9,868 nucleotides of DNA from Candidatus Desantisbacteria bacterium CG1_02_38_46 (lineage in GTDB: Bacteria; Desantisbacteria; UBA1551; UBA1559), in the NCBI GenBank assembly GCA_001871015.1, contig MNUO01000123.1:1-9868 (forward strand), given 5' to 3'. The notes below the pieces were generated by a model. That model saw only the letters and a list, made by a program, of their open reading frames with translations. It was not told the DNA's origin and ran no database searches. Shown piece after piece: positions 3,937 to 8,794 of this stretch (positions within the stretch are counted from its first letter, which is position 1; every line of letters starts with the position of its first letter). The position numbers were made by a program, and so were the translations under genes.

Positions 3937-4257
3937 TCATTTTTTTATGCGGGTGTTAGATTTTTTTCTAATTTCCTCAACCATTTTTTTCAATTCCTGA
4001 AACTCTTCACGTGTTGGAATGTTCATCCTGGCAATTATTTTTTTCATTGTTTCTTCTATCTTTGATTCAATTGCTTCCCTGCCTTTTTGTGCTCTCTCAA
4101 AAATTACCCTTGCAACCGCATTCACATCCTTCCTGGACGTTTCACCTTTTTCTATCAGTCCCCCGGCAATCTCCTGTGCTTTTTCCTTTGTGATAGCAAC
4201 GAGCCCCAGTCCAGCCAATAATCCCTTTTTTAAAACCTCTTCAATTTTATTTGACAT
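3937..4257 (-). CDS. Small phasin-like coiled-coil protein
   Basis: A 106-residue, highly charged, helix-forming protein. The N-terminal third has a short apolar helix with GLLAGLGLVAITKEKAQEI, followed by GLIEKGETSRKDVN. The rest is rich in Glu and Lys in heptad-like order, ending in a probable coiled coil (about residues 78-100). This layout matches the small proteins annotated as phasin or polyhydroxyalkanoate granule-associated proteins. No polyhydroxyalkanoate synthase or depolymerase is in the window, so granule binding is not supported by context. The start ATG at 4257 has AAAAGGAG with 8 bases of spacing. It is 51 bases after the EF-Tu-like gene and 9 bases before the epimerase gene, so the three are probably cotranscribed. 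A structural or stress-related scaffold is an equally good reading. Confidence 0.6.
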   Translation of the reverse strand: MSNKIEEVLKKGLLAGLGLVAITKEKAQEIAGGLIEKGETSRKDVNAVARVIFERAQKGREAIESKIEETMKKIIARMNIPTREEFQELKKMVEEIRKKSNTRIKK

Positions 4258-4308: not shown

Positions 4309-4569
4309 TTATTCGCTTGCAACCTTATATACCTTATCGTCCTCCCTTGCATGTTCGGTTACTCTCAACCCAATAACATCCCCCACATTAGCAGTCTGAA
4401 TTGACTGGTGTTCAATCTGCATTGAATCCACCTTCTGATTAAAATCGCTGGTATGTCCTTTGATGTGAATCGTGTCACCAACACTGAGGCTATCTGATGT
4501 AATCTTGATAGCCGCTACACTAATATGAGTAAAATAATGTGTCACTACACCTATTTCTTTTTCCTCCAT
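4309..4569 (-). CDS. Free-standing EF-Tu domain II-like beta-barrel protein
   Basis: An 86-residue protein that looks like a single domain of the translation-factor domain II beta-barrel type. Key segments are IGVVTHYF-HISVA (6-18), VGDTIHIKGHTSDF and MQIEHQSIQTANVGDVIGLRV. The same block forms the C-terminal domain of many U32 peptidases (YhbU/YegQ/RlhA group). Here it stands alone, without a peptidase or GTPase domain, as in small proteins annotated 'translation elongation factor-like'. The molecular function is unknown; RNA, ribosome or protein binding is a guess from the fold. The start ATG at 4569 is fixed by an exceptionally strong ribosome site at 4575-4587, which overlaps the stop codon of the upstream membrane protein gene. 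High expression seems likely. Confidence 0.8.
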   Translation of the reverse strand: MEEKEIGVVTHYFTHISVAAIKITSDSLSVGDTIHIKGHTSDFNQKVDSMQIEHQSIQTANVGDVIGLRVTEHAREDDKVYKVASE

Positions 4570-6205: not shown

Positions 6206-7174
6206 TTAGCTATCAAGATAAACTGTTATTTTTGAACGAGTTTTTAACTCTTCATACCATTTTTCAAAAGCCTGAGAGTTTTTCTGCCGGGTAAGCGATT
6301 TCTTTAAGTCTTCCTTTTCTTTTGCGAACGCCTCTTCATCAATTCCAATTTTTTCTCTTGCTTTATAAAGACATATACCGTCCGGTATATGGACAGTTCT
6401 TATTTCTCCGGGTGGTGAATCAAAACTTGTCTTAACAAGTTCCGGCACATAGCCTATTCCCTCTATATAATATTGAAATTGTGTGCAGATAGTCTCATTG
6501 GGGACATATCCACTTTCCCTTACAATAGTCTCAAATTCTGTTGAATCCTTTAATTTCGCTCTTAATTCGTCCACCTTTTTCATGGTAATTTCTCTTTCTT
6601 TATCAGTTATTTCTGTGTCTGGCATGGTTACATATTTGATGATTACATACTGGACTTTCATTTTCTCGTTAAGTTTTACATATTCATCTCTTACCTCTTT
6701 ATCTGAAGCCTGCTCTCTATTCATGATATATTCCTGAAATTTAATGTAGAGTAATTCCTCCTGAAAAGAACCCCTTATCTCTTTCCATTTTATGTTGGGA
6801 TTATTTATTGCCCATAGATATTTTGTTTTATCAAATTTGCCATCCTTTCCTTTGAAGAAAACCTCCTTTATCTTTTCCTCAACTTCTGTATCGCTGACCT
6901 TGAATTTGACCCTCACGGCTTCTCTTGTAATCAGTTCTCTTTTGATAATTTCATCTAAGACAAAACGCCTTGCCCAGATGGTCGTTTCCTTATTAATTGG
7001 GGAACCAGGGTTAAAAGAGCGAAAGTCCTGTAAAAATTTTTCATAAACAGTATTGAAATATTCCCTGGTAATAGGTTTATTATTTACCTTTGCCACAATC
7101 CCTTTATCCTGGCATAGCCCTGAAGGTAAAATAAACCCTAAAATAAACCACGAAAACACAAAGAAATACTTCAG
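6206..7174 (-). CDS. Exported SurA/PpiD-like periplasmic folding factor, CTG start
   Basis: A 322-residue exported protein. A hydrophobic N-terminal segment with one lysine (KYFFVFSWFILGFILPSGLC) reads as a signal peptide. The cysteine at 21 is preceded by SGL, which is a poor lipobox. Residues about 24-130 resemble the SurA/PrsA N-terminal chaperone region (VAKVNNKPITREYF, then LDEIIKRELITREAVR). Residues about 180-290 hold a weak parvulin-like domain with GYVPELVKTSFDSPPGEI, but the usual parvulin signature is eroded, so peptidyl-prolyl isomerase activity is doubtful. The start is inferred to be CTG at 7174: AAAAGGAGG lies 5 bases upstream, and it overlaps the preceding stop as CTGA. The first standard start in frame, GTG at 7159, is 20 bases from that site and would remove the lysine and part of the signal peptide. 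The likely role is folding of exported proteins. Confidence 0.78.
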   Translation of the reverse strand: MKYFFVFSWFILGFILPSGLCQDKGIVAKVNNKPITREYFNTVYEKFLQDFRSFNPGSPINKETTIWARRFVLDEIIKRELITREAVRVKFKVSDTEVEEKIKEVFFKGKDGKFDKTKYLWAINNPNIKWKEIRGSFQEELLYIKFQEYIMNREQASDKEVRDEYVKLNEKMKVQYVIIKYVTMPDTEITDKEREITMKKVDELRAKLKDSTEFETIVRESGYVPNETICTQFQYYIEGIGYVPELVKTSFDSPPGEIRTVHIPDGICLYKAREKIGIDEEAFAKEKEDLKKSLTRQKNSQAFEKWYEELKTRSKITVYLDS

Positions 7175-7917
7175 ATGGTCCTCCTTTTACGACCTAGATA
7201 AATTGATAGAGGTTCTGAGGGGAGCGGTCCATCATTTGCTCCAAAACCTTGCCCGATTCTTTCAATGAACATCAAAGGAATCCTGCCCCACCCGCTACGC
7301 GGGTGCCCGTTCTTCTTTACTAAAAAAGATACGATTGCAGTTCCTAAAGGAGTGGTCATCTCTCCTTTTATGTCCAGCGCATATGTGGGAATATTTTTTA
7401 CTAAAAGAGAAGTTGCCGGAACTGGTACTGAAAGGATGCCATGACTACATTTGACATTTCCACTTCCCAGAGAAAGTCCAGAGCAGTACACTTCTCCAAT
7501 TTTCAATTTTTTTATACCTGCTACAATTCCGGTCACAATAAGAATAGCTTTGGGTTGGCCCACTTCATACAGATGTACTTTCTCTTTGGGCTCCTTGTGG
7601 ATTTTTGACTCTACTTCACCAATTTTATCATATATAAGTTTTACTGTGCTTTTAATGCCTGATTCTAAATAACTTAAATTAATTAAATTAATAATTTCCT
7701 TTAGTGTAGTGGGGCATCTCTTTTCCTCGCTTTTTAGTTTTATGTTAGTCGCTTTGTTTTGTCCCCTCTTTTCTCTTTTTACATCTATTTCAAATGGAAT
7801 GTTGAGTTTTTTCATTTCCTCTATTAATATATTTGCCTCTATACCTGCATCAATTATTGCAGAGAGGAGTTTACGAGGAGTAACACCATAATAACAATCC
7901 AGATATGCAACTCTCAT
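7171..7917 (-). CDS. Divergent LarC1-like protein (nickel-pincer cofactor nickelochelatase family)
   Basis: A 248-residue protein with the LarC1 (DUF111) frame. LarC inserts nickel into the pyridinium bis-thiocarboxylate cofactor made by LarB and LarE. Family blocks remain at the start (MRVAYLDC), at 118-130 (YEVGQPKAILIVTG), at 159-169 (HGILSVPVPAT) and at 185-195 (GEMTTPLGTAI). Several usual motifs are altered. The N-terminal SGISGDM is YGVTPRK, the His-rich stretch before the first long helix is absent, and HFHEVGAxDxI reads HLYEVGQPKAI. The CTP-binding LarC2 domain is missing, and the next gene follows at once, leaving no room for a frameshifted extension. Residues 205-212 are an extra GC-rich segment. 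The start ATG at 7917 fits the family N-terminus, with AAAGG 9 bases upstream; an ATG at 7923 is also possible. Function may have drifted from nickel insertion. Confidence 0.72.
   Translation of the reverse strand: MRVAYLDCYYGVTPRKLLSAIIDAGIEANILIEEMKKLNIPFEIDVKREKRGQNKATNIKLKSEEKRCPTTLKEIINLINLSYLESGIKSTVKLIYDKIGEVESKIHKEPKEKVHLYEVGQPKAILIVTGIVAGIKKLKIGEVYCSGLSLGSGNVKCSHGILSVPVPATSLLVKNIPTYALDIKGEMTTPLGTAIVSFLVKKNGHPRSGWGRIPLMFIERIGQGFGANDGPLPSEPLSIYLGRKRRTI
7180..7188 (-). promoter_or_regulatory. Strong ribosome site deciding the CTG start of the SurA-like gene
   Basis: AAAAGGAGG on the minus strand, inside the last codons of the LarC-like gene and 5 bases before CTG at 7174. It is 20 bases from the next possible start (GTG 7159), too far for normal initiation. 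It therefore supports CTG, or a sequence error in what would otherwise be ATGA. Confidence 0.65.
7282..7305 (-). repeat. GC-rich palindromic insertion inside the LarC-like coding sequence
   Basis: Eight codons encoding HPRSGWGR (residues 205-212) are almost entirely G and C in an AT-rich gene. They contain a perfect 7-base inverted repeat, CACCCGC and GCGGGTG, around a 3-base centre (7289-7305). LarC relatives usually run straight from the FG-type turn into PxMxIExIGYGAG, so this looks like an in-frame insertion. The pattern resembles short palindromic elements that enter genes, such as the Rickettsia palindromic elements. Membership of a repeat family is inferred, as only one copy is visible. 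Confidence 0.5.
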
Positions 7918-7936
7918 ATTCATGAACCTTTTAATA

Positions 7937-8065
7937 TTACCTTTTCTTTTTTCTTCTTGCCCCGGGTTTAGCCATTTTTGCCTGACAAAGGTTGCCCTTG
8001 CCATCTACATAATACATATAACCCGGCTTCCTCTGAACTGCATTCCTCATAATAATTTCACCCAT
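7937..8065 (-). CDS. Small basic 42-residue protein between larB and the LarC-like gene
   Basis: An ORF of 42 codons plus TAA. It begins MGEIIMRNAVQRKPGYMYYV, continues DGKGNLCQAKMAKPG and ends in the strongly basic tail ARRKKKR. Support is strong: AGGGGGTGAT (8079..8070), nine of ten bases matching the ideal Shine-Dalgarno, with 8 bases between the G run and ATG at 8065. It fits neatly between the larB stop (18-base gap) and the LarC-like start (19-base gap). There is one cysteine, at about residue 27, and no hydrophobic segment. The core with NAV-R-PGY-YYVD-GN-C-AKM followed by a basic tail resembles small hypothetical proteins I associate with candidate phyla and archaea, but that is an impression without a search. 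The basic tail suggests RNA or nucleic-acid binding. An internal ATG at 8050 is a weaker start. Confidence 0.72.
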   Translation of the reverse strand: MGEIIMRNAVQRKPGYMYYVDGKGNLCQAKMAKPGARRKKKR

Positions 8066-8069
8066 TTTT

Positions 8070-8079
8070 ATCACCCCCT
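8070..8079 (-). promoter_or_regulatory. Strong ribosome site of the small basic protein
   Basis: AGGGGGTGAT differs from the ideal AGGAGGTGAT at one base and lies just after the larB stop codon. It is the main evidence that the 42-residue ORF is translated and fixes its start at 8065. Confidence 0.75.
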
Positions 8080-8083
8080 CTCG

Positions 8084-8794
8084 TCATTTATTTATAAGGT
8101 GGGCAAAATAACCCGCACCAAAACCATTATCAATATTGACCACTACCACACCAGGTGCACAACAGTTCAGCATTGTAAGTAGTGGCGCAATTCCTTTGAA
8201 ATTCGCTCCATAGCCAACGCTCGTCGGCACTGCAATAACCGGTTTGCTAGTTAATCCTCCTACCACACTTGCAAGTGCTCCTTCCATTCCTGCCACTACA
8301 ATTATCACCTTTGCCATTTTCATCTTATTCCTGTTGAGAAAGAGACGATGTATCCCAGCAACGCCAACATCATAAAGTCTTTCAACTTTATTTCCAAGGG
8401 TCTCAAGTGTAACTGCTGATTCCTCTGCAACAGAATAATCGCCTGTCCCGGCAGTGATAATAAGAACCTTTCCTTTAAATGGCAGACGACTCCTTTTCTC
8501 AAGGACTATAATCCTGGCATCTTCATAAAACTTAGCTTCAGGAATCTTCTCTTTAACCTTATTGAAAATTTCCCTTTTTGCATGCGTTGCAAGAACAGGA
8601 CCTGAAACTCTGTTGATACTTTGCATAATTTTTATAATTTGATCCGGACTTTTCCCGGGACAGAAAATAACCTCAGGTATTCCTTTTCGTAACACGCGGT
8701 GCAGATCTACCTTTGCAAATCCTATATCATCATATGGAAGGAATTTTAACTTTAATTTTGTTTTGTTGCTGGAATTACTTCTACGCATACCCAA
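8084..8794 (-). CDS. larB: LarB, pyridinium-3,5-biscarboxylic acid mononucleotide synthase
   Basis: A 236-residue protein of the PurE-like LarB family. LarB carboxylates and hydrolyses nicotinic acid adenine dinucleotide, the first step of nickel-pincer cofactor synthesis. Conservation is high: PYDDIGFAKVDLHRVLRKG (20-38), PEVIFCPGKSP (40-50), TAGTGDYSVAEESA (114-127), YDVGVAGIHR (141-150), VVAGMEGALASVVGG (166-180) and CCAPGVVVVNIDNGFGA (211-227), which holds the Cys of the CAPG motif. The TAGTGD segment more often reads GTSD or GTAD. The N-terminus lacks the usual 20-30-residue helix ahead of LP(Y/F)DD. AAAGGAG at 8806..8800 precedes TTG 8794 by 5 bases and ATG 8788 by 11, so either may be used. 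The start overlaps the M16 gene by about 40 bases. LarE and LarA are not in the window. Confidence 0.93.
   Translation of the reverse strand: MGMRRSNSSNKTKLKLKFLPYDDIGFAKVDLHRVLRKGIPEVIFCPGKSPDQIIKIMQSINRVSGPVLATHAKREIFNKVKEKIPEAKFYEDARIIVLEKRSRLPFKGKVLIITAGTGDYSVAEESAVTLETLGNKVERLYDVGVAGIHRLFLNRNKMKMAKVIIVVAGMEGALASVVGGLTSKPVIAVPTSVGYGANFKGIAPLLTMLNCCAPGVVVVNIDNGFGAGYFAHLINK

Follow-up and report, generated by a model that had tools for sequence, protein, structure and literature searches.

The window, by which we mean the whole analyzed stretch of 9,868 nucleotides, contains a small gene on the minus strand between larB and a larC frame (Table 1). The frame starts with ATG at 8065 and ends with TAA at 7939-7937, and its 42 codons yield MGEIIMRNAVQRKPGYMYYVDGKGNLCQAKMAKPGARRKKKR, a protein with a computed pI of 10.6 and a net charge of +10; the plus strand of 7937-8065 does not encode it. 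The original prediction had located this ORF and described its content correctly, leaving the strand unstated, and we confirmed that the frame is complete, preceded by a ribosome site, and tightly spaced to both neighbors. The NAV, PGY, YYVD, and GNLC motifs and the Arg/Lys-rich end were likewise all found in the translation. It is doubtful, however, that the gene lies below usual gene-calling limits, as had been stated, because it spans 129 nt and common gene callers apply a minimum gene size of 90 nt. The small gene is probably cotranscribed with larB and larC. A search of the window against Rfam gave no match.

Table 1. Positions of the small gene, its sequence elements, and its neighbors in the window.
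Feature	Position	Strand	Basis and remarks
Gene of the 42-aa basic protein	7937..8065	minus	Translation, homologues, charge; one unit of ~33 residues followed by a 9-residue PGARRKKKR tail
Extended Shine-Dalgarno sequence AGGGGGTGAT	8070..8079	minus	Sequence; 4 nt ahead of the ATG
larB, upstream neighbor at 18 nt	8084..8794	minus	NF033503 LarB, 291 bits; functional tie not seen as far as tested
larC, N-terminal part, downstream neighbor at 13 nt	7171..7923	minus	PF01969 (profile positions 1-224 of 375), TIGR00299
Most conserved core of the unit, GYMYYVDGKGNLCQAKM, predicted beta-hairpin	7973..8023	minus	Alignment of 35 sequences, column counts, AlphaFold strands 16-20 and 26-30

The LarC frame matches only positions 1-225 of the 375 in the profile. 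The LarC of a relative from the same order of Candidatus Desantisbacteria (G001, the only other genome of the phylum in the collection searched) likewise matches positions 1-219 only, and a search for a second LarC part elsewhere in the two genomes found none in either. Thus, the LarC of both genomes appears to lack the C-terminal domain, or to carry one too divergent to detect. Elsewhere in the window, the minus strand encodes a phasin-like small protein at 3937-4257 (PF05597, E 6e-8), and an 86-aa ORF beside it (4309-4569), without a Pfam match, resembles an elongation-factor beta-barrel domain.

Judged by its homologues, the 42-residue ORF is a genuine conserved gene, far beyond what chance would produce. 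A search of the window genome itself revealed three copies, namely the window ORF, C39:670-792 (80% identity), and C131:60081-60206 (69%), while the relative G001 carries a single copy with 70% identity to the window protein. Compared over a 33-codon core, the window copy differs from that on C39 by synonymous change only at 13 codons and by amino acid change at 4. The comparison of synonymous with nonsynonymous change proposed in the original prediction showed strong purifying selection: the median dN/dS over archaeal homologue pairs was 0.10, and the differences at codon positions 1/2/3 amounted to 0.18/0.11/0.47. Furthermore, 74 of the 78 homologous loci have one of the motifs GGAGG, GAGGT, AGGTG, or GGTGA in the 20 nt preceding the gene. 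It is unlikely that the gene entered the bin on a contaminating archaeal contig, given the three copies, the position of the relative's copy between V-ATPase subunit F and cvpA, and the bacterial type of the window genes; those that could be identified match typically bacterial families, such as a PlsY-type acyltransferase and a SurA-type foldase.

The family is built from a unit of ~33 residues, which occurs alone or as a tandem pair and has the consensus MGxIIxKNxVxRKPGYLYYVDGKGNVCEAKMARGG. In an alignment of 35 sequences, with column counts over 78 sequences, G15, Y18, D21, and G24 were invariant and M1, R12, L17, A29, and M31 nearly so. The window protein carries these residues of the GYLYYVD-GN-AKM family, with M instead of L at position 17. 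It belongs to a first type, with one unit and the motif GNVCEAKM, in which Cys27 is found in 78 of 78 sequences; the second type has GDVSRAKM-like units, single or tandem. A zinc ribbon or similar small metal-binding protein would need two or more Cys/His ligand pairs. The family has only the one conserved Cys, a position that is Ser or Ala in members of the second type, and therefore no metal ligand set, which leaves the suggested metal association unsupported.

Most members end in a K/R tail interspersed with A, P, V, or T. Tail length is 6 to ~100 residues overall; it is 6-55 among the archaeal single-unit members and reaches ~100 in some of the two-unit forms, the long two-unit members having AKKKPAKKK repeats. 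The charge of the core ranges from +3 to +7, while the tail has a median charge of +13 and a K+R content of 68%. Some copies on viral contigs have no tail and are near neutral (+1 for L147 and +3 for L150); therefore, the tail is not the whole function, and the core is probably functional alone. An archaeal protein encoded on the minus strand of L185 (3179-4108) consists of a HIT domain (PF01230, also matching DcpS_C), then one unit, and then an acidic tail; HIT/DcpS_C-like proteins form a nucleotide/RNA-end hydrolase family. This fusion suggests that the unit can serve as a module. Another HIT protein (L181) has a Lys-rich tail and no unit.

Searches of several members against Pfam and NCBIfam profiles found no family match, and PHROGs and PDB sequence searches returned only weak matches near chance level, including one to uS4 (E 0.34) in the single-sequence PDB search. 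The papers searched for the motif text of the family contained none, and we found no description of the family in the literature. Thus, the family is unnamed so far, and no curated family model covers it.

AlphaFold predicted the window protein alone with modest confidence (pLDDT 68), with strands at residues 11-13, 16-20, and 26-30. The two-unit form reached a pLDDT of 87 and a pTM of 0.70, with three strands per unit. The beta fold and the pairing of two units are predictions. Foldseek against PDB and BFVD gave no match with E below 0.001. With VIA-align, the best fold match was SmpB at Z 2.8, a value that may mean nothing, and uL6 matched at the noise level of Z 2.1-2.3; no solved fold convincingly matched the predicted one, and the want of such a match among nucleic acid–binding proteins counts against the binding role proposed below.

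A scan of one genome per species revealed at least 348 confirmed loci. Among the best 80 of these, 75 were archaeal, mostly from Pacearchaeota, Woesearchaeota, and Nanoarchaeota, and 5 were bacterial. In the archaeal phylum (Pacearchaeota, Woesearchaeota), 118 of 148 sampled genomes carry the family. Among 386 diverse genomes related to that of the window, 31 carry it; one of these 31 belongs to another bacterial phylum, in which 47 of 100 genomes encode a two-unit protein of ~77 aa. One bacterium, FK4.bin61 (G486), has six copies of the small gene (loci L100, L112, L126, L153, and L156-L160). Single- and two-unit forms were also detected on IMG/VR viral contigs, among them one of 103 kb and one of 430 kb, while GenBank phage records and PLSDB plasmids contained no match to the family. 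Phage-like contigs encoding one- and two-unit homologues, some of them without the basic tail, include the 430-kb contig (L143/L148), L146 (103 kb), L149, and L150, and the homologue of L143 has a long additional C-terminal part.

In Pacearchaeota, the gene has a conserved neighborhood: in 47 of 80 loci a DUF192 gene precedes it by ~60 nt, and in 45 of 80 TsaD/Kae1 follows downstream within 2 kb, succeeded by ribosomal L7Ae and S28e; some loci include L24e, and a gene for the Obg-like GTPase YGR210 lies upstream. A gene matching PF18894 (“putative phage metallopeptidase”) is a conserved same-strand neighbor in 49 of 80 loci of this group (cluster c1, e.g., L102 and L123). In Woesearchaeota and most bacteria, the neighbors vary and are mostly unrelated, which fits a stand-alone housekeeping role.

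In a tree of the units, the bacterial single-unit copies (from the window genome, G001, FK4.bin61, and JPAS_metabat.71) nested inside the archaeal single-unit sequences with low support. Both FK4.bin61 and JPAS_metabat.71 encode HU, consistent with their being bacteria as labeled. The gene is near-universal in the archaea, and the simplest reading is a transfer of the single-unit type from them to these bacteria, of which 35 residues are no proof.

Several explanations of the small gene have to be weighed. That it is a chance open frame without a product, to which a length of merely 42 codons would lend itself, has a vanishingly small probability: it is already refuted by the existence of homologues, and it is at odds with the 69-80% identity to the paralogues and the relative, the purifying selection, the kept ribosome sites, and the near-universal archaeal homologues. 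The original prediction had made the gene depend on homologues being found and on the orthologous gap being free of frameshifts, and the outcome of what was in effect this test favors a protein. A dedicated accessory function in the LarB/LarC nickel-pincer pathway is also very improbable for the product. The tight operon spacing of 18 and 13 nt speaks for such a role, but the only copy of G001 has V-ATPase subunit F and cvpA as neighbors and is ~3.5 kb from larB, with larC on another contig, and hundreds of archaeal homologues have other neighbors. When every locus fetched up to that point was searched by tblastn with LarB and LarC, larB/larC were found only in the window locus and near the G001 copy, and none of the other fetched copies has a lar gene at its side. 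We rejected the accessory role on these grounds of synteny, as a neighborhood with larB or larC is not conserved in the relatives. In the window genome, the C131 copy occupies the same place as the G001 copy, between V-ATPase subunit F and cvpA. In the tree of 35-residue units, which is weak owing to such short sequences, the three window-genome copies cluster with one another, diverging once G001 had split off (local support 0.87), and the three paralogues would thus have arisen within the window-genome lineage. Because this clustering follows the split and the lar sites of G001 are without a copy, the copy beside the lar genes is most likely a recent duplicate. The lar pathway itself may be active, since both genomes have larA homologues. 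Of what had been proposed at the outset, a conserved, nucleic acid–associated protein riding in the operon is borne out by the two-domain homologues, purifying selection, cationic core, and Lys-rich tail, whereas membership in the LarB/LarC pathway, for want of conserved adjacency, is not.

We consider it reasonably probable that the gene encodes a general, abundant nucleic acid–binding protein associated with the nucleoid or the ribosome; binding, abundance, and cellular site are all inferred. Two units, in one chain or as a homodimer, would form a small cationic module of six strands, and phosphates would be neutralized by the disordered Lys/Arg-rich tail. The protein would coat or bridge DNA, as nucleoid-associated proteins do, or bind to the rRNA of the ribosome. 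It would have no role in nickel-pincer cofactor synthesis, the window copy being a lineage-specific duplicate inserted between larB and larC. Only the charge and the tail composition point to a possible place in the nucleoid. HU was present in 11 of the 11 bacteria tested, so that a replacement of HU was rejected, and archaeal histones were found in 43 of 58 genomes, with and without the family and with no clear anticorrelation; therefore, no pattern of replacement favors the nucleoid role. A narrower version that overlaps this explanation, in which the protein serves the ribosome or translation by binding rRNA or tRNA and does not package DNA, seems rather unlikely. Its main argument is the conserved translation neighborhood in Pacearchaeota, and the strong ribosome sites and the tiny, basic protein would fit. 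However, the neighbors differ outside Pacearchaeota, the fold matches to uL6 and SmpB (Z 2-3) are at noise level, and the family has no profile relation to the solved ribosome chains in PDB, where the best match (E 0.55) was nonribosomal. Many large ribosome-bearing clades are without the family, which therefore is not a core ribosomal protein. Binding to another polyanion or a role outside the nucleoid and the ribosome, be it with polyphosphate, at the cell envelope, or as a secreted cationic peptide, is distinctly improbable: Lys-rich tails bind any polyanion and the tail length varies widely, but the sequences show neither a signal peptide nor a transmembrane segment, and a core so nearly invariant speaks for a specific partner.

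Taken as a whole, we find it possible, at a little below an even chance, that the gene represents an undescribed chromatin or ribosome family of one or two new small beta units, near-core in an ultra-small archaeal phylum, passed to a few bacteria where it multiplied (three copies here and six elsewhere), and with related forms in phages. Its presence in ~80% of the sampled genomes of an archaeal phylum with reduced genomes, and in several bacterial phyla, implies a likely basic function. If a role in DNA packaging or on the ribosome is true, the family would extend the short list of such proteins by a new small fold, and it would mark genes exchanged between tiny archaea and bacteria. At this length, the proteins can be synthesized and tested directly.

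The closest counterparts are uncharacterized small proteins of Pacearchaeota and Woesearchaeota, which share the unit and the Lys tail and reach 69% identity over 39 residues; in contrast to the window protein, they are archaeal, have one or two units, and often have longer tails. LarB and LarC adjoin the small gene in the window genome without conserved linkage. Archaeal histones, Alba, Cren7/Sso7d, and HU are of the same general kind, being small, abundant, basic nucleic acid binders, but searches of several members against Pfam and NCBIfam gave no sequence-profile relation of the family to archaeal histones, Alba, Cren7, or HU, and no sequence relation to Sso7d was found either. Bacteria also have histone H1–like or lysine-tailed nucleoid proteins, such as those of the Hc1/HctB type and mycobacterial HupB with its tail. 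The family resembles these in its small size, basic character, and AKKKPAKKK-type tail, while the core differs and the long-tailed members give no Pfam match to Hc1/HC2. The Lys/Ala/Pro-rich tail of H1-like proteins is thus found in the family, although not strongly in the window copy, which has PGARRKKKR only.
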